Assembly (NCBI GenBank): GCA_029981435.1
Contig: JARRBB010000013.1
Location: 1 to 37,866, forward strand
Length of the DNA: 37,866 bases
Source of the DNA: Thermotogaceae bacterium
Lineage (GTDB): Bacteria; Thermotogota; Thermotogae; B21-G9; HyVt-16
Reading direction: 5' to 3'
The notes beneath the pieces are model-generated. The model was not told the origin of the DNA, searched no databases, and saw only the letters and a program-made list of their open reading frames with translations. Shown in pieces: positions 2,276-37,866 of the stretch; position 1 is the first letter of the stretch, and every line of letters begins with the position of its first letter. A program made the translations under genes and the position numbers.

Positions 2276-2866
2276 ATGAGTTTTCAAAGGTTTTTAAAGA
2301 GATTATTTGATATCTTTTTTGCCCTAATAGGGATAGTAATTTTATCACCTTTCATGCTTTTAATAGCGATCATCATAAAAGTTGATTCCAAAGGTTCTGT
2401 GATATACAAACAGGAAAGACTTGGAAAAAATGGGAAAGTTTTCAAGATATATAAATTCAGGACGATGATTGAAAACGCAGAAAAGATCGGTAGCGGTCTA
2501 TTCACGCATGAAAACGATCCAAGAATAACGAGAGTTGGAAAATTTCTGAGAAAAACGAGTATCGATGAACTCCCGCAGCTGTTCAACATTCTAAAAGGTG
2601 ATATGAGCTTTGTCGGTCCAAGACCACCTGTTCCTTATTATCCAAAAAAGTGGGAAGAGTACACCGAAGAAGAAAAGAAGCGCTTTTCTGTGAGACCTGG
2701 TATAACTGGATGGGCACAGGTAAATGGGAGAAATGAGATCGACTGGCCCGAAAGAATAAAGCTGGATGTATGGTATGTAGAAAACTGGTCGTTGGCTCTG
2801 GATTTTAAAATAATCCTTAAATCTTTTAAGGTGGTTTTGAAAAAAGAGGGAGTGTACAAAGATTGA
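2276..2866 (+). CDS. Polyprenyl-phosphate phosphoglycosyl transferase (PglC/WcaJ-type bacterial sugar transferase)
   Basis: 196 residues from the ATG at 2276, preceded by AAGGGG at 2258-2263; an in-frame TTG at 2243 would overlap the previous gene and is less likely. Enzymes of this family move a sugar-1-phosphate from a UDP-sugar to undecaprenyl phosphate on the cytoplasmic face, the first membrane step of surface glycan assembly. A re-entrant hydrophobic helix (about residues 9-35) is followed by the family motifs KFRTM (60-64), the catalytic Asp-Glu pair in SIDELPQ (97-98), FVGPRPP and RPGITGWAQVNGRN. The length is that of minimal PglC-like enzymes rather than large WbaP types. Its last codon overlaps the start of the PglD-like gene, suggesting the two act on the same sugar. 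The sugar specificity cannot be read from sequence. Confidence 0.92.
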   Translation: MSFQRFLKRLFDIFFALIGIVILSPFMLLIAIIIKVDSKGSVIYKQERLGKNGKVFKIYKFRTMIENAEKIGSGLFTHENDPRITRVGKFLRKTSIDELPQLFNILKGDMSFVGPRPPVPYYPKKWEEYTEEEKKRFSVRPGITGWAQVNGRNEIDWPERIKLDVWYVENWSLALDFKIILKSFKVVLKKEGVYKD

Positions 2867-30556: not shown

Positions 30557-31588
30557 TCAATCCAGTATATTCACGAATTTTTTGTTCGAAGAAGATTCCA
30601 GAATCTTTTCTATGATTTTTATCGCTATATACCCGTCTTCAGGTTCAACGATAGGCTTTTCATATCTAAGACAGACCTTCGCAAAATGATCTATCACAGG
30701 CATTTTCCAGTACGAATCTTTGTTCGTGAACAATGGAGCCAGAGTAATTTCACCGTGGAATTCAACCGGCTTACTTAAAAATATGTCTATCTTTGATGGG
30801 GTTGTTTGACCGATTTTCATCGTACCGTATTCTCCATAAACGACAAAATAGTTTTCTTCCAGTCCTTTGGTTATCCAGTTGGAATCAAGGGTTGCTATCG
30901 CGCCGTTCGAAAGTTTTAAAATCACGCTTGCCACATCTTCAACATCCGCATTTTTTTCGAGTGTATCTGTTATCGCCACACATTCTGTTATTTCAAGCCC
31001 TGTAAGATATCTTATCAGGTCTATCTTGTGCACACCAAGATCCCCAAGTGCTCCAAAATTTGCGGTATCCTTCTTAAAAAACCAGCCGGCACTCGAAGAC
31101 CAGTTTTCTGGGCCTGAATGACCGAACATGGTCTTGACGAGCCTTATTTCTCCAAGAAGACCAGAATTTAACATTTCCCGAGCTTTTTGATGGTGTGGGA
31201 AGAATCTCTGAGAATGATTCACCATCAAAATTCTGTGATTTCTTCTCATGGTCTCTATCATTTTTTCTGCATCACTGGATTTGGTTGCCATTGGCTTTTC
31301 AACTAGAACATGTTTTCCATTGTTCAAAGCATCTACAGTAACCTCAGAATGAAGAAAATTCGGAACAGATACCACCACTGCATCCAAATCTTCACGTTTT
31401 AAAAGCTCATGATAATCATCATAGTAATCTACATTTTTTAATCCAAACCTGTCTTTTATTTCTTCCACTCTTCTTCTGTCTTTATCTGTGATGCATTTTA
31501 ATTCAGCATATTTGGAAAACAGTATATTTGGTATATGAAGAACCTGTGAAATCTTTCCTGCACCAATTACTCCCATTCTTATTTTCAT
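30557..31588 (-). CDS. Gfo/Idh/MocA-family oxidoreductase
   Basis: 343 residues. The N-terminal Rossmann domain begins MGVIGAGKISQVLHIPNIL, followed by VVVSVPNFLHSEVTV and the family lysine motif HVLVEKPMATKSSDA. The C-terminal domain has GALGDLGVHKIDLIRYLTG with the catalytic Asp/His. Family members oxidise or reduce sugars, inositols and their derivatives with NAD(P). As the last gene of the sugar operon it probably carries out a step on the imported compound; a dehydrogenase acting on a sugar or inositol is plausible. Direction and substrate are unknown. It starts three bases after the PIG-L gene. Confidence 0.9.
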   Translation of the reverse strand: MKIRMGVIGAGKISQVLHIPNILFSKYAELKCITDKDRRRVEEIKDRFGLKNVDYYDDYHELLKREDLDAVVVSVPNFLHSEVTVDALNNGKHVLVEKPMATKSSDAEKMIETMRRNHRILMVNHSQRFFPHHQKAREMLNSGLLGEIRLVKTMFGHSGPENWSSSAGWFFKKDTANFGALGDLGVHKIDLIRYLTGLEITECVAITDTLEKNADVEDVASVILKLSNGAIATLDSNWITKGLEENYFVVYGEYGTMKIGQTTPSKIDIFLSKPVEFHGEITLAPLFTNKDSYWKMPVIDHFAKVCLRYEKPIVEPEDGYIAIKIIEKILESSSNKKFVNILD

Positions 31589-31591
31589 ACC

Positions 31592-32227
31592 TCAATCACC
31601 CCTGAAGAGATTTTTGAAATCGATCTTTTTGATTTTGTAAGGTGCCAGAGGAAATCTTGAACCGCAGTGTTTGAAAACTTCTGCAAATTTGCAACCGACC
31701 TGTATGCCCCTGAAACCTGAAGTGTATAAAATCGAAGGATATATCTCTTCTTCGAATATTTTTGATTCAAAAGCCTTTCTCATAGTTTCTATGGCTTCCA
31801 CTTTCGATTCATATGAATCACTTATGTCGACTGCGAAGTCGAATTCAAACCCTATGCTCGATGCAGGTATTTCGAACATGAAAATTTCTTTTTCAAGCCT
31901 TCTGCTTGTTTCCAGGGATATTTTTGAAACTATTTCATGATCATATAAGATCTCATTACTCCAATGAGTAAAAATGAAATCAAACGATTTAATAAAATCC
32001 TCAAGATATTCTTTCAGTTTTGACTCATCTATATTCCCGTATGAAAAATTAAGATGAATAGGCCGTGCATTCAAAGATTTTATCGCTTCTTCAAAACCGT
32101 TTATTCTATCACCACATACACTCATAACCGTTACATCGTAACCAAAAGAGGATAAATTCATTATCGTTCCACCCATACCTATTATTGGATCATCACTGTG
32201 AGCGGCGATCACCAACACCTTAGACAC
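31592..32227 (-). CDS. PIG-L/LmbE-family N-acetyl-sugar deacetylase
   Basis: 211 residues. The N-terminal VLVIAAHSDDPIIGMGGTIMNL is a variant of the AHPDDExxG motif: the zinc-binding His and the two Asp residues are present, but the proline is Ser and the following Glu is absent. The third metal ligand is probably in HWSNEILYDHEIVS. PIG-L enzymes deacetylate GlcNAc-containing compounds (GlcNAc-PI, mycothiol and bacillithiol precursors, chitobiose), and some act on other acyl sugars. Within this operon it most likely removes an acetyl group from the imported compound. The start overlaps the end of the LacI gene by eight bases. Activity is inferred because the motif is altered. Confidence 0.83.
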   Translation of the reverse strand: MSKVLVIAAHSDDPIIGMGGTIMNLSSFGYDVTVMSVCGDRINGFEEAIKSLNARPIHLNFSYGNIDESKLKEYLEDFIKSFDFIFTHWSNEILYDHEIVSKISLETSRRLEKEIFMFEIPASSIGFEFDFAVDISDSYESKVEAIETMRKAFESKIFEEEIYPSILYTSGFRGIQVGCKFAEVFKHCGSRFPLAPYKIKKIDFKNLFRGD

Positions 32228-33227
32228 TATATTCCCCCCTGTTTCTTATGCTCGATTCTCTTATGACAAGGCGAGGAGAGAAAACATATTTTTTTATTTT
32301 GGAATCTCCGTTTTCAATCAAATTTATCAAGGATCTGGCCGCTATTTCTCCCATTTCTTCGACTGGTTGATGGATGGATGTCAAAGAAGGAGTGATTATT
32401 TCGCACAGCTCCTCATCATTGTCGAATCCTACTATCGATACATCTTCAGGTATTCTCATATTATTTTCTTTTAAAGCCTTGATGGCACCTATTGCAACCA
32501 GATCATTCACGCAAAAAACACCATCAAATTTTTCATTTTTGCTCAACAGTTCTTTCATTTTCTTATATCCACTTTTTTCGTCATAACCAGTTAAATAAAC
32601 CTTCGGTTCAAGGTTGTTTTCTTTCATTGCAAGTGTGTACCCTTCTATTCTCTGAACGGAGACGTATAATTCTGAGGTTCCCGATAGGTGAACTATTTTC
32701 CTGCAACCGTTTTTTATCAGATGTGTGGTTGCAAGTCTCGCACCGTGCTTGTTATCTAAAATTATGGAAACGGTATTTTTCAATTCGTAGTCTTTATCAA
32801 AGACAACGATCGGAATGTATCTGGAAATTTCTAAAACAAGATCATCGTTCACCCTTGAATTTCCTATTATTAAACCATCTATACCACGAAATCTTGCGTT
32901 TTTTATGAGTTTTTCTTCACGATCAAGGTTTCTGAAAGAATCCATCAATATTACCAAAACGTTTTCACCACAAGTCTTCTCAATACCTCTCGTTAATGTT
33001 GAAAAAAAGGGATTGGATATATCCGGTACAATTAGACCAATTGTTAAGATCTTCGATTTTTCGACCATTCTTCTGGCATGATAATTCGGAGTGTATCCAA
33101 TTTCTTTTGCAACTTTCAGAATTTTTCTCCTTTTGCTTTCACCCACTCTTCCTTTTCCATTCAGAACTTTTGAAACGGTTGAGACAGATACATTGCAAAG
33201 TCGAGCTATTTCTTTCAGTGTTGCCAA
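32220..33227 (-). CDS. LacI-family transcriptional regulator
   Basis: 335 residues. The N-terminal helix-turn-helix and hinge are unmistakable: ATLKEIARLCNVSVSTVSKVLNGKGRVGESKRRKILKVAKEIGYTPNYHARRM. The rest is a type I periplasmic-binding-protein effector domain with TIGLIVPDISNPFFSTLTRGIE, GVFCVNDLVAIGAIKAL and VSIVGFDND. It most likely represses the sugar operon in which it lies and releases DNA on binding the sugar or a metabolite. The gene is the fifth of seven, an internal position that would give autoregulation. No clear LacI-type palindrome is visible in the short leader before the first gene. Confidence 0.93.
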   Translation of the reverse strand: MATLKEIARLCNVSVSTVSKVLNGKGRVGESKRRKILKVAKEIGYTPNYHARRMVEKSKILTIGLIVPDISNPFFSTLTRGIEKTCGENVLVILMDSFRNLDREEKLIKNARFRGIDGLIIGNSRVNDDLVLEISRYIPIVVFDKDYELKNTVSIILDNKHGARLATTHLIKNGCRKIVHLSGTSELYVSVQRIEGYTLAMKENNLEPKVYLTGYDEKSGYKKMKELLSKNEKFDGVFCVNDLVAIGAIKALKENNMRIPEDVSIVGFDNDEELCEIITPSLTSIHQPVEEMGEIAARSLINLIENGDSKIKKYVFSPRLVIRESSIRNRGEYSV

Positions 33228-33245: not shown

Positions 33246-34115
33246 TTAAAATTCTTCTTCTATATTTAGTTCTTTTAGAGTTTTTCTGAGCCATTCGATA
33301 GACTTTTCAAGTAGTATACCACCATTTCCTTCACATTCTATACTCAAAGTTCCGTTATAACCTGAGTCTCTTAGAATTTCCAGGACCTTTTTAATATTTT
33401 CAGCATTTACACCTTCACCAACTGCGCAGTGACTTATCCCTATACCTGTTTCCTTTCCTCTTAACTTGGCAGCTAAACTTTCTGAAACGTCTTTTATATG
33501 AACGTGCTTTATTCTGTCTATGAATTCTCTACAAAATTCAACAGGATCCTGACCAGCTATGAAAGTGTTCCCAGTATCAAGGTTCAATCCAAGTTTTTCA
33601 CTATCAACGAAATCAAGCATTTTCCTTAGGAATTCTGGCTTGGTGGTAAAATATCCATGCACCTCTATATTGATGTTTATATCGTAAAGTTCAGCTGTTT
33701 CAACGATCTTTGAAAAAGCTATCTTCATTAATTCCATAGCCCTTTCATCTGAAAGTCCTTCTGGCTTATTTAAACCATCTGTAACCGCAATATTTGGACA
33801 ATCAGTTAATTTTGCCCATGGTAGTGTTTTTAAAACATACTGTATTCCAATAGATAATCCTTCCAATCCTGACAGTGGAAAGGCTGCATCAAGTTGTGAA
33901 AATCTTATATCGCGAGATAACATTTTGTTTTTAATACTCAAGGGATCATCTAAAAGAGATATGTGTGGAAAATATCCCAATCCGTGGATCCAGGAACTTC
34001 CATCTATTACCCCACATTCGATATAATGTATATTATGCTTGTGAGCCCAATCCAGTGCTTTTTCAAAGCTGAATACGGCTGAATTAAAAGCATCGGTATG
34101 AAACCCTATTCTCAT
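33246..34115 (-). CDS. Sugar phosphate isomerase/epimerase-like TIM-barrel protein
   Basis: 289 residues of the xylose isomerase-like TIM-barrel (AP-endonuclease 2) superfamily. It starts RIGFHTDAFNSAVFSFEKAL, and metal-binding positions are visible as Glu in NINIEVHGYF, Asp in LGLNLDTGNTF, His in IKHVHIKDV and Glu in LSIECEGNG. Members include hydroxypyruvate isomerase, tagatose epimerase, inosose dehydratase and various sugar epimerases. In this operon it may epimerise or dehydrate the imported sugar or its oxidised product. Specificity cannot be assigned. It lies 13 bp after the permease gene. Confidence 0.82.
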   Translation of the reverse strand: MRIGFHTDAFNSAVFSFEKALDWAHKHNIHYIECGVIDGSSWIHGLGYFPHISLLDDPLSIKNKMLSRDIRFSQLDAAFPLSGLEGLSIGIQYVLKTLPWAKLTDCPNIAVTDGLNKPEGLSDERAMELMKIAFSKIVETAELYDININIEVHGYFTTKPEFLRKMLDFVDSEKLGLNLDTGNTFIAGQDPVEFCREFIDRIKHVHIKDVSESLAAKLRGKETGIGISHCAVGEGVNAENIKKVLEILRDSGYNGTLSIECEGNGGILLEKSIEWLRKTLKELNIEEEF

Positions 34116-34128
34116 AGTATCCCCTCCG

Positions 34129-35127
34129 TTAAGATTTCAAAAGCTTCTTTTTAAAAGTTCCCTTGTACGAGCTGAACGCACTTACGGCAAGTGCTGCAAC
34201 TATGAATAATCCAAAAACGACCTCTTGAAAATAAGGATTTACTCTCAACATATTCAAGGTGTTTGAAATCATACCCATGAGCAACACACCCAGAAAGGTT
34301 CCAAATATATTCCCCTTTCCTCCGGAAAGAGGCGTTCCACCAATTACTACCGCACCTATCGCTTTTAATTCCATTCCAGTACCGGTTGTCGGTTGAGCGG
34401 CTCCGATTCTCGATAAAAGAATCATAGAGGCGATACCAATCAGAAAGCCGTTTAACAGAAAAGCGTACAGTTTGGTTTTAACAACTGATATACCTGATAG
34501 ATAAGCAGCGGTTGAATTACTACCGACGGCGTAAATGTGCCTTCCAAGACGGGTGTATTTAAGTATAAAGTGGATAGCGAAGTATATGATGATACCTATC
34601 AAAAACCCCAGAGGTAATAAGCCACCAATACGTGTCAGTCCAAGTGCTTCAAATTTTCCATAAATGGTTTGAAAAACACCCTTTGTTATAGCATAAGCAG
34701 TTCCTCTGAAGATACTTAGAAACCCCAGTGAAACGATGAAAGAAGGAGCTTTGAAAGCTATTGAAGAAGCTCCAACAAGGAAACTATTAAATGAAGACAG
34801 GAGAATCGCGATAATAACGACCCAGAGATAACTTATGTCGTTCTTAATCATCATTGCAATCACACAGGTTACCAGTCCAACATTCGCACCAACAGATATG
34901 TCTATTTCACCTGAGATTATCAAAGCAGTCATACCTGATGCGAGTATTCCAAGAACAGCTATCTGTTCAAGTATGTTTGTAAGATTGCTCAAGGTGAAAA
35001 ACCGCGAATTGATTACACCAGTTATTATCGCCAGAACAACCTCTGCAAGAAGTAAAAAGAACCATTGATTTTTAAAGATGGATTTTTTGCCTTTTGGAAG
35101 TATTTCATTTGATAATGAATTCAACAT
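34129..35127 (-). CDS. Sugar ABC transporter permease (RbsC family)
   Basis: 332 residues from the ATG at 35127, which follows GGGAGGG by eight bases; the longer frame to 35154 overlaps the ATPase gene. About nine to ten membrane helices are visible. The ribose/xylose/inositol permease family signatures ISGEIDISVGANVGLV and IGGTPLSGGKGNIFGTFLGVLLMG are present. It forms the homodimeric membrane channel with the ATPase encoded just upstream and the binding protein two genes upstream. A single permease gene, rather than two, is normal for RbsC-type systems. Confidence 0.93.
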   Translation of the reverse strand: MLNSLSNEILPKGKKSIFKNQWFFLLLAEVVLAIITGVINSRFFTLSNLTNILEQIAVLGILASGMTALIISGEIDISVGANVGLVTCVIAMMIKNDISYLWVVIIAILLSSFNSFLVGASSIAFKAPSFIVSLGFLSIFRGTAYAITKGVFQTIYGKFEALGLTRIGGLLPLGFLIGIIIYFAIHFILKYTRLGRHIYAVGSNSTAAYLSGISVVKTKLYAFLLNGFLIGIASMILLSRIGAAQPTTGTGMELKAIGAVVIGGTPLSGGKGNIFGTFLGVLLMGMISNTLNMLRVNPYFQEVVFGLFIVAALAVSAFSSYKGTFKKKLLKS

Positions 35128-35146
35128 TTTACAACCCTCCCAGGAT

Positions 35147-36643
35147 TTAGACACCTATGAAAAGTTTAATTAATTCTTCTTCTTTTATGTTTTTGTTTTC
35201 AAGGATTTCTATCATCCTGCCATTTCTCATTACTCCTATACGGTCGCTCATTGAAATAAGTTCAGGCATATCTGATGAAACCATGATAATGCTCTTTCCC
35301 TTTTCAGCAAGCTCCGTCATCAATTCGTAAATTTGTTCTCTGGCACCTATGTCCACACCTTTGGTTGGTTCATCGAATATATAAAGAATTGCATCCTCAT
35401 CAAACAACCATCTTCCCAGAATGACCTTTTGCTGATTCCCGCCAGAAAGTTCCTCTATCAGCTGATCTCTGTTACTGACGGCGACGGAAAGTCTTTTTAC
35501 CATGGAAGAGCACAGATTCAACTCCTGCTTTAAATTCAGGAGGTTGTTTTGTTGAATTTCATGATAAATAATCGTGGAATTTTCGACAACGTTTCTTCCA
35601 AGAAGCATCGCATATTTTTTACGATCTTCTGGGACAAAGCATATTCCATTTCTTATGGCGTCTATGGGTGAATTTATTTTCAATTTCTTTCCCTTTATTC
35701 TTACTTCACCTTTGTCGGGTTTCATAATTCCGAATATCATGCTTACCAATTCCGTTCTTCCAGAACCGACAAGGCCTCCGATACCAAAAATTTCTCCTTT
35801 TCTTACACTAAAACTAACATCGTGGATGATTCCTTCTTTTGAAAGATTCTTAATCTCGACCTGTTCTTCTCCTATATTCACTTTACGTTTTTTGAAAAAC
35901 AGTGACGTGTCTCTCCCAACCATCTTGTTGGTTATGGTACTTATATCGACAGCTTTTACTTCGTATGTTCCCATGTTTTCGCCGTCTTTGAGTATCGTGA
36001 CTCTGTCACCTAATTCGAAGATTTCACTTAAATAATGAGAGATGTAGATAATACCAATGCCTTTTTCTTTAAGGTTTCTAACCAGATTCATCAAATTTTT
36101 TGTCTCTTCAAGTCCAAGTGAACTTGTAGGTTCATCAAAAATGATGACCTTGGCATTTCTGTGAAGTGCTTTCGCGATTTGAACCATTTGTTTTTGCGCG
36201 GTTGACAGTTCACCAACCAAAGTATCAGGTGAAATTTCTATACCGAGAGCTTCCAAAATGTTTCTGCTCTGCTCATTCTGATGATTTCTATCTACAAGAA
36301 ATCCTGAATTCTTTGTTTTTTCTTCCCCAAGAAATATGTTCTCTGCTACAGTTAGTGAATCAACAAGTTCGGTATCCTGATAAACAGTGGAAATACCTAA
36401 TTTAACAGCGAGTCTTGGTGTCATATTTTTAATCAATTTGCCGGATATATAAATTTCTCCAGAATCAGGCGAAACAGCACCCGATAAAATCTTTATCAAA
36501 GTCGATTTACCGGCACCATTTTCACCTATCAGGCAATGAATTTCCCCTTCTTTTAACTCAAACGAGACTTTCTTCAAGACAACATGTTCACCATATATTT
36601 TCACAATATCTTTGAGTTCAACTATGGTTTTACTATTTTTCAT
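35147..36643 (-). CDS. Sugar ABC transporter double ATPase (RbsA/MglA family)
   Basis: 498 residues with two ATP-binding cassettes fused in one chain. Domain 1 (about 1-240) has Walker A GENGAGKSTLIK, signature GELSTAQKQMVQ and Walker B VIIFDEPTSSL. Domain 2 (about 255-498) has the degenerate P-loop GLVGSGRTELVSM, signature EELSGGNQQKVILGRWL and Walker B DAILYIFDEPTKGVDIG. This arrangement is typical of carbohydrate importers for ribose, xylose, galactose or inositol. The ATG at 36643 has GGGGG upstream. A 66 bp gap with a stem-loop separates it from the binding-protein gene. Confidence 0.95.
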   Translation of the reverse strand: MKNSKTIVELKDIVKIYGEHVVLKKVSFELKEGEIHCLIGENGAGKSTLIKILSGAVSPDSGEIYISGKLIKNMTPRLAVKLGISTVYQDTELVDSLTVAENIFLGEEKTKNSGFLVDRNHQNEQSRNILEALGIEISPDTLVGELSTAQKQMVQIAKALHRNAKVIIFDEPTSSLGLEETKNLMNLVRNLKEKGIGIIYISHYLSEIFELGDRVTILKDGENMGTYEVKAVDISTITNKMVGRDTSLFFKKRKVNIGEEQVEIKNLSKEGIIHDVSFSVRKGEIFGIGGLVGSGRTELVSMIFGIMKPDKGEVRIKGKKLKINSPIDAIRNGICFVPEDRKKYAMLLGRNVVENSTIIYHEIQQNNLLNLKQELNLCSSMVKRLSVAVSNRDQLIEELSGGNQQKVILGRWLFDEDAILYIFDEPTKGVDIGAREQIYELMTELAEKGKSIIMVSSDMPELISMSDRIGVMRNGRMIEILENKNIKEEELIKLFIGV

Positions 36644-36709: not shown

Positions 36710-37726
36710 TTAATTTAAAACATCCAACAAACCTTTATATTCCGGGAAGTACTCTTTTGTCAGATCGATCCACACTGGATCAATATCCCATGGTACAACT
36801 TTAGTTTTGTCATCTATGGTTTCTGGAGTTATAGGAGTGATTGGCAGGAAAATCCACTGTCTTAAAGCCTTTATTTTCCCGGTTACATAAGCATGCAGAG
36901 CGAGGAATGAAACAAAGCCTTCCCAACCTGGAGAACTTGAAATTGAATACTGTATACTTCCTTCTTTTATGAGTTCAATTCCATATGGAGCACCGTTAGT
37001 TGTGATAACCTTTATAGGATTATTGAGAAGATTTCTTGCCTTCAACATACGAACGACTGCTGCACCCATTTCTTCGTTGAATACGAACAGTATCGAGAAA
37101 TCGTAACCCGATTCAATTAAATCCTGAGCCTGTTTAACTGCTTCATCTGGTATGTATTTTCCATCCCTTATTGCGACGATTTTATTCTTTCCCAACTTTT
37201 TCACTTCAGGTTCAAAGGACTTTAAAAACATCTGGACTGGAACATGTTCCAACCTTCCCATTATCACTGCTATATTTTCTCCCGGATAATTTTTGGCGAT
37301 ATAATTTGCTATGTCTTTTCCCATTGCATCCCAGTTGAAATCGATACATGCTACGACAGGATCCTGTGATTTCAAAACTTCACCAACGTTATCCGTAACA
37401 ACAAGTGGGATACCCGCTCTTGCACATTCTCTGGCTGCAATGAAAGCCCCGTTAGGATTGAATGAGAATATACACATTCCATCTACTCCCATGTTAACGA
37501 GGGTTTGAATGTTAGCTATTTCTTTTTCCACATCGTAATCGGAATTAAGGACCACTACTTCCACACCTGCCAGTTTTGCTGCATACTGAAATCCTTCGAC
37601 ATCCTTTCTGTACCATGTGTCAGGTCCAGGTGTCACATAGCCGTAGACTAATTTTTTAGCGACCCCCACGCTGAACAAAACTCCCAAAATTAAAAGCATC
37701 AGAACTAATACTCTCAAATGTTTCAT
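36710..37726 (-). CDS. Sugar ABC transporter substrate-binding protein (RbsB-like)
   Basis: 338 residues from the ATG at 37726, preceded by AGGAGGTGTATTCCAA; a longer frame to 37780 would run into the transposon end and is rejected. A signal peptide (KHLRVLVLMLLILGVLFSVGVA) precedes a type I periplasmic-binding-protein fold of the Peripla_BP_4 class: GYVTPGPDTWYRKDVEGFQYAA, IANIQTLVNMGVDGMCIF, AGIPLVVTDN, GENIAVIMG and FNEEMGAAVVRML. The C-terminal WIFLPITPITPETID is typical of ligand-closing segments. It is first in the seven-gene operon. The ligand is unknown: ribose, xylose, inositol and amino-sugar binders all share this scaffold. Confidence 0.92.
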   Translation of the reverse strand: MKHLRVLVLMLLILGVLFSVGVAKKLVYGYVTPGPDTWYRKDVEGFQYAAKLAGVEVVVLNSDYDVEKEIANIQTLVNMGVDGMCIFSFNPNGAFIAARECARAGIPLVVTDNVGEVLKSQDPVVACIDFNWDAMGKDIANYIAKNYPGENIAVIMGRLEHVPVQMFLKSFEPEVKKLGKNKIVAIRDGKYIPDEAVKQAQDLIESGYDFSILFVFNEEMGAAVVRMLKARNLLNNPIKVITTNGAPYGIELIKEGSIQYSISSSPGWEGFVSFLALHAYVTGKIKALRQWIFLPITPITPETIDDKTKVVPWDIDPVWIDLTKEYFPEYKGLLDVLN

Positions 37727-37776
37727 TTGGAATACACCTCCTATTTTAAGGTAGAGTAACTCCAGCTGGTGAACTA

Positions 37777-37798
37777 CCATGACTTCTAGAAGTCATGG
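37777..37798. repeat. Perfect 22 bp palindrome at the transposon end
   Basis: The half site CCATGACTTCT is followed directly by its reverse complement; as single-stranded DNA it could fold into a stem with a short loop. The minus-strand TAG stop of the TnpB-like frame is at its centre (37788-37786). Confidence 0.85.
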
Positions 37799-37866
37799 CT
37801 TCCCGCTTCAACCCGTGATGACTCGTAGACCAGAAGAGTTTTCCTTCCGTTCCGCCGCCAGAGCAC
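37786..37866 (-). CDS. tnpB: TnpB-like RNA-guided nuclease, C-terminal fragment
   Basis: Only the last 26 codons are in the window, ending RVEAGSHDF then TAG at 37788-37786; the start is beyond the right edge. The EAGSxxx ending and its position against a subterminal palindrome are what I recall for many thermophile and archaeal TnpB (formerly OrfB/IS1341-type) proteins. TnpB is an RNA-guided nuclease ancestral to Cas12; its guide RNA (omega RNA) overlaps the 3' end of the gene and the right end of the element. The call depends on a short tail and could be wrong if the frame is spurious. Confidence 0.55.
   Translation of the reverse strand: MLWRRNGRKTLLVYESSRVEAGSHDF

Follow-up and report, generated by a model that had tools for sequence, protein, structure and literature searches.

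Related Systems

Among described systems, the closest to the element considered here is ISDra2, an IS200/IS605 element with both tnpA and tnpB, for which the available part of the published account (PMC8612924) reports reRNAs of about 150 nt, which correspond to the tnpB 3' end plus the right end and extend about 16 nt into the flanking sequence. The locus described below shares with ISDra2 a tnpB 3' end that overlaps the right-end region, subterminal hairpins at both ends and, as judged from sibling copies, insertion after a fixed short motif without duplication, and RNA is likewise expected to enter the flank. It differs in its TAM (TTTAT rather than TTGAT), and in that many siblings are truncated or have no complete tnpB. 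Insertions of IS elements that alter the promoter or expression of a neighboring gene are well known (PMC9208149, in the portion available). Here too an element lies less than 50 nt from a start codon and the native promoter has very probably been displaced; the difference is that a probable displaced promoter and operator can be named, and that an outward promoter in the element is hypothetical. PATE-like short IS605 sequences have also been described already (PMC7290912, available in part); compared with these, nine short siblings in the present genome keep both ends and a tnpB 3' stub, and some add a -10-like motif and an extra hairpin between the left end and the stub. Finally, TldRs are nuclease-dead TnpB repressors that, in the accessible part of PMC13418256, occur beside flagellin genes; the present locus similarly has a TnpB-type gene beside a non-transposon gene, but the high copy number, intact ends and unrelated neighbors of its family point to a mobile element rather than an exapted regulator. 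A limited literature search returned nothing on this operon, or on an IS605/TnpB insertion re-driving a neighboring gene.

Right End of the Element and the Operon Leader

The window, i.e., the whole stretch of 37,866 nt that was analyzed, is contig C3 (G000:C3) of a genome of 97 contigs and 1.96 Mb, and it terminates inside an IS200/IS605 element. Its end is an IS200/IS605-family right end with a TnpB gene upstream, both on the reverse strand, as are all features given below for the window. The gene is represented by its last 18 codons plus the stop codon at 37808-37810 (37808..37866), and runs off the window; the frame of the last 56 bases continues the TnpB C-terminus encoded on contig C23, which ends in RALTAERKENSSGLRVITG before the stop, and longer sibling copies with the same C-terminus match PF07282 and PF01385 (OrfB_IS605 and TNB zinc finger domains). 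The TnpB gene predicted upstream by the sequence-only reading is thus present, and the opposite outcome, that no TnpB lies upstream, is excluded by the tnpB tail within the window. Below the stop codon are 39 nt of non-coding right end (37769..37807) ending in GGTAGTTCAC. The outer edge was placed at 37769, since the 33 genome copies share the sequence up to and including GGTAGTTCAC and diverge after it; the element start had previously been put at 37771, 2 nt inside this edge. Within the right end is a 9 bp hairpin, CCATGACTTCTAGAAGTCATGG (37777..37798), which covaries. In an alignment of 18 distinct right ends it is formed in 95.1% of 162 cells, two-sided changes occur at three of its nine pairs, and its covariation score was reached by none of 500 shuffles, a figure that, given the relatedness of the copies, should not be read as a probability. 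No Rfam match to an omega-RNA family was obtained, and the 98-nt tail folds no better than its shuffles (z -1.26). The Y1 transposase TnpA (PF01797) has a single, partial match in the genome, at the left end on contig C4.

Between the edge of the element and the operon is a leader of 42 nt (37727..37768), close to the 45 bp or so first estimated between the right end and the start of the binding-protein gene. If an omega RNA/reRNA is produced, the first 16 nt or so of this leader would serve as its guide (guide length from the available part of PMC8612924). The leader also carries a Shine-Dalgarno sequence, AGGAGG, at 37737..37742. The reading frame of the binding protein is open through the entire leader; the ATG at 37726 was kept as the start because it is preceded by the Shine-Dalgarno sequence and opens an N-terminus that resembles a signal peptide, like those of the orthologues. 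A scan of both strands of 37400-37866 found neither promoter nor terminator, and a search of the whole window with the operator pattern described below, allowing up to three mismatches, gave three matches against 3.03 expected by chance, none of them near the leader. A leader with a ribosome-binding site and without promoter or LacI operator, as originally noted, is therefore what remains.

The first operon gene encodes a sugar-type substrate-binding protein (36710..37726, PF13407), the named relatives of which are encoded mostly by loci of Thermotogota, including Pseudothermotoga and Mesotoga. It is followed by genes for an ABC transporter ATPase (35147..36643, PF00005), an ABC permease (34129..35154, PF02653), a xylose-isomerase-like TIM barrel enzyme (33246..34115, PF01261), a LacI-family regulator (32220..33227, PF00356/PF13377), a PIG-L type deacetylase (31592..32227, PF02585) and a Gfo/Idh/MocA oxidoreductase (30557..31588, PF01408), the last gene common to the relatives. 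The LacI-family regulator is likely the local repressor, having orthologues of 66-68% identity within the same operon in relatives.

Copies of the Element and the Assembly Break

A genome search with the right end gave 36 matches. In three of them the palindrome had matched itself on the opposite strand; the remaining 33 are copies, and for a genome of 1.96 Mb their number is far above chance. Fourteen of these, that of the window included, are 96-100% identical, and none of the 14 is more than 91 bases from the end of a contig. It is thus at the repeat that the assembly breaks, and the copy in the window cannot be read past 37866. An uninterrupted insertion site is absent from the assembly, where the joined 20-mer matches solely the right-end junction itself, with two mismatches.

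The gene neighborhoods of 32 right-end flanks were inspected, and a co-directional gene start was found within about 130 nt in ten (C3, C23, C90 left, C85 (44561), C18, C6, C31, C33, C61 and C51), given here as a raw count; C30, C76 and C52 also have nearby starts listed but were dropped as interrupted genes. The right end on C31 (L037) lies 62 nt before glyQ and that on C18 (L035) 100 nt before the gene for ribosomal protein L21, both co-directional with the gene. The glyQ and L21 genes are normally essential. Right ends before these two genes and before another binding-protein gene indicate that such positions are tolerated, even ahead of normally essential genes. On C23 (L146:213-1319) a right end of the window's family is found 23 nt before a CRISPR-associated gene (PF09651, Cas_APE2256). 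On C71 (L056:101-1597, reverse strand) a 499 aa frame with matches to RNA polymerase Rpb1 domains (PF04998, PF00623) appears to be interrupted, since at the edge of the contig it meets a right end.

Nine short elements of 108-281 bp have a left and a right end and no complete tnpB (L043, L051, L035, L044, L042, L052, L038, L046 and L053, on C61, C96, C18, C75, C85, C91, C65, C44 and C11, respectively); that on C91 has partly lost its right end. In those on C61, C96 and C18 the motif TGCTATA(A/G)T follows the left-end hairpin, and is followed in turn by a small hairpin and the tnpB 3' stub, so that by their sequence they resemble guide-RNA units equipped with promoters of their own. A degenerate element on C51 (L048, about 2540-2790, reverse strand) has no left-end hairpin and a mutated right end, GGTAGTCCAT; it carries a 12-of-12 match to the sigma-70 pattern, TTGACA-18-TATAAT, stands 40 nt ahead of a second binding-protein gene (SBP_bac_1), and looks like an element turned into a promoter and leader. 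The tnpB copies on C69 (L102) and C97 (L073) are truncated from their 5' side, the former beginning at about RuvC-I and the latter keeping only the C-terminal zinc-finger part. Judged from such copies, the family is heavily decayed.

Left Ends and Rejoined Flanks

The search for left ends started from the TnpA start on C4 and gave 22 rows of matches, among which eight junctions formed one class (C4, C58, C14, C60, C43, C83, C10 and C42). All eight are preceded by TTTAT and begin C[G/A]TTTTTTGCAAA[G/A]AAG, and the left ends carry the palindrome CTCCATCTTCTGTAAGATGGAG, so that subterminal imperfect palindromes are present at both ends of the element, the right-end hairpin being the one that covaries. 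Open reading frames by themselves proved too permissive a basis for pairing left with right ends, as many combinations remained open, and only two pairs with continuity of a Pfam domain were used. When the left flank of C4, up to TTTAT, is joined to the right flank of C52, a GGDEF domain is matched over profile positions 2-160 with 156.4 bits, compared to 18-160 and 134.9 bits for the right half alone. Joining C43 to C16 gives DUF6512 at 38.9 bits, above the cut-off of 26, the halves scoring 22.5 and 19.7. Both pairs rejoin exactly and without target duplication, which fixes the boundaries and shows, for the two tested cases, that this left-end class goes with the right-end class of the window. 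From the eight left ends and two pairs, the siblings are seen as inserted 3' of the fixed motif TTTAT without duplication. Three other pairs were set aside: C34 with C74 was CheW-like by eye but without a Pfam match in the halves or joined, C10 with C30 was in frame only, and in C83 with C71 the match of the C71 half is to Rpb1 domains of RNA polymerase and not to GGDEF. Compared to the 14 right-end junctions of the same class there are eight left-end junctions, so at least six right ends are without a left partner among those found.

Orthologous Operons in Relatives

The upstream DNA of 12 distinct orthologous loci was compared (L010 and L076 are the same contig, and L080 and L085 were left out as they begin at a contig end). 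In L071 (G008) the same gene types are grouped as in the window, except that a single additional gene separates the isomerase-like enzyme from LacI. In three of the twelve (L011, L076 and L075) the promoter TTGACT-17-TATTTT is followed by the operator GTCAA[A/G]CGATTGAC, and each of these genomes has a complete LacI orthologue in the operon, with 66-68% identity. L077 has a partial LacI orthologue and a different palindrome, GCAAACGTTTGC. The arrangement of this promoter and operator is absent from nine of the twelve loci, and an end of the element, read by eye, was found in the upstream DNA of none. Recent horizontal transfer of the operon was considered but is not supported, as identity to Pseudothermotoga is about 90% for the binding protein alone and 52-81% for the other genes.

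A Candidate Displaced Promoter on Contig C42

A copy of the relatives' promoter is found in the genome at C42:170-198(-), directed into one of the eight left ends; the first base of the element is C42:92, 77 nt from the -10 box. As in L011, there is a TG one base before the -10 box (TGA before -10). After the promoter comes an operator-like palindrome (C42:148-164) that reads TTGGTAAAACGTTTTCC on the other strand, its half-sites being TTGGTAAAACG against TTGGTCAAACG in the relatives. It has three mismatches to the relatives' pattern, a level at which the genome has 51 hits and the control 40, i.e., chance, and among these 51 the C42 site is distinctive only together with the promoter and left end. 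The relatives' pattern has no exact match in the whole genome, and no second genome site occurs within two mismatches of TTGGTAAAACGTTTTCC, a pattern derived from C42 itself. The promoter motif, TTGACT-N17-TATTTT, occurs three times in the genome, and reversed-pattern controls twice; by arithmetic, the number of element-directed promoters to be expected no farther than 200 bp from one or other of the eight left ends is about 0.001. At seven of the eight junctions there is an open frame of at least 45 aa, and at C42 alone there is none, a weak criterion, as in four of the seven the frames on the reading strand are only 46-75 aa long. When C42 is joined to the window, the -10 box is 119 nt from the ATG. 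Taken together, these features make C42 very probably the flank on the opposite side of the window's copy.

The suggestion that the insertion cut the operon from its native promoter is, from this indirect but good support, very probably right: three element-free orthologous operons, which also include LacI, have a promoter and LacI-type operator upstream, and the same promoter with a similar operator lies beside the C42 left end. A strong promoter and operator of the host beyond the palindrome had been named as a finding that would refute the reading. They probably do exist, on C42, but past the whole element, where they support the separation instead. In addition, a promoter-like TTGACA/TATAAA on C32 (L136, bases up to about 7199) is oriented towards a left end of a second element class, read by eye, and may be a second displaced promoter. 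C32 was set aside as the far flank of the window's copy since the tip of its left end is not the same as in the two tested pairs, a line of reasoning rather than a test.

Proposed Mechanism and Alternatives

The best explanation, to which we give a probability of roughly 0.75, is that an IS200/IS605 insertion separated a LacI-controlled sugar operon from the native promoter and operator now found on C42. The element, probably with tnpA and tnpB, would have entered the operon leader after a TTTAT motif, with tnpB in the same direction as the operon. The native promoter (TTGACT-17-TATTTT) and operator (TTGGTAAAACGTTTTCC, other strand) would thereby have been moved one element length from the coding sequence, leaving the operon with its 42 nt leader and ribosome-binding site. 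It would then probably be fed by RNA crossing the right end, either tnpB/omega-RNA transcripts, read-through from the displaced promoter, or both, and its control by LacI would be loosened. We infer the flanking of one copy by C42 and C3, the gene content of the window's copy, and all of the transcription proposed here. The extension of ISDra2 reRNAs into the flank implies that RNA crosses right ends of this kind, and by analogy omega-RNA/reRNA transcription is expected across that of the window.

How the operon is now transcribed could be answered in two ways. There is about an even chance that promoters of tnpA, tnpB or the omega RNA at or near the left end drive it constitutively, which is compatible with the last step of the insertion scenario and would fit the other suggestion of the sequence-only reading, that transcription may be supplied from within the element; that suggestion is plausible. 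No terminator was found at the right end, the ISDra2 reRNA runs about 16 nt into the flank (PMC8612924, part available), genes behind right ends are evidently expressed, as with glyQ and the L21 gene at 62 and 100 nt from sibling right ends, and the full sigma-70 match (18-nt spacer) of the degenerate C51 sibling precedes an omega-RNA-like part and a binding-protein gene. However, in C4 the left-end region gives a single weak promoter match (9 of 12), against a shuffle mean of 1.9, a weak terminator-like hairpin faces inward, and glyQ and L21 could use promoters in their own leaders or read-through from upstream genes. Somewhat less probable is that the displaced native promoter reads across the element and keeps the operon under LacI control. 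The common direction of tnpB and the operon, and the lack of a detected right-end terminator, would permit this, but more than 1 kb of element, with the inward hairpin and possible internal terminators, would lie between promoter and operon.

It is unlikely, but deserves weight, that the element interrupts the leader as proposed while the C42 promoter comes from another operon, the far flank of the window's copy not being in the assembly. The surplus of right-end over left-end junctions (14 against 8) means the true partner could be missing, and other right ends also face gene starts (C23 at 23 nt, C90 left at 124 nt and C85 at 119 nt). The best explanation is further weakened in that the promoter motif alone is at chance frequency, the C42 operator differs from those of the relatives, most orthologous loci do not have the arrangement, and the C42 neighbor genes were not found beside the operon in relatives, except for an HD-GYP domain shared with L079. 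Against an origin of the C42 promoter in another operon, C42 matches the promoter of the orthologous operon and has a LacI-type palindrome, and C23, which opens with a CRISPR-associated gene, is an unlikely LacI target.

An artefactual, chimeric contig end is very improbable: the contig does end exactly at a repeat present 14 times at 96-100% identity, but its boundary coincides to the base with that of the other copies, intact domains are recovered when two other pairs are rejoined, and the assembly holds no uninterrupted version of the site. TldRs are also found at ABC transporter loci. Regulation of the sugar operon by an exapted, nuclease-dead TnpB of that kind, which a TnpB-type gene beside a transporter operon resembles, is nevertheless hardly credible for a copy from a high-copy, near-identical family with intact ends and unrelated neighbors elsewhere, and with no element end at any of the 12 orthologous loci (by eye) to suggest a stable association.

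Implications

The separation of the sugar operon from its promoter is very probably an ordinary transposon insertion, a new example of a known event by which the switch of one operon was rewired; the short siblings without tnpB that stand before essential genes and another transporter gene are a more interesting by-product. A far-reaching and improbable interpretation of the IS605-type elements in this genome, above all of the short copies with a promoter-like motif, an omega-RNA-like body and no complete tnpB, is that they are mobile leaders, in which one transcript would serve as both TnpB guide RNA and mRNA 5' end, and loading or processing by TnpB would tune neighboring operons, the sugar operon included. 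With a likely displaced promoter and repressor site identified, this natural case makes it possible to measure directly what a TnpB element does to the operon next to it. If RNA crossing the right end is indeed both guide RNA and operon mRNA, insertions of this kind would give TnpB elements a general means of rewiring genes.
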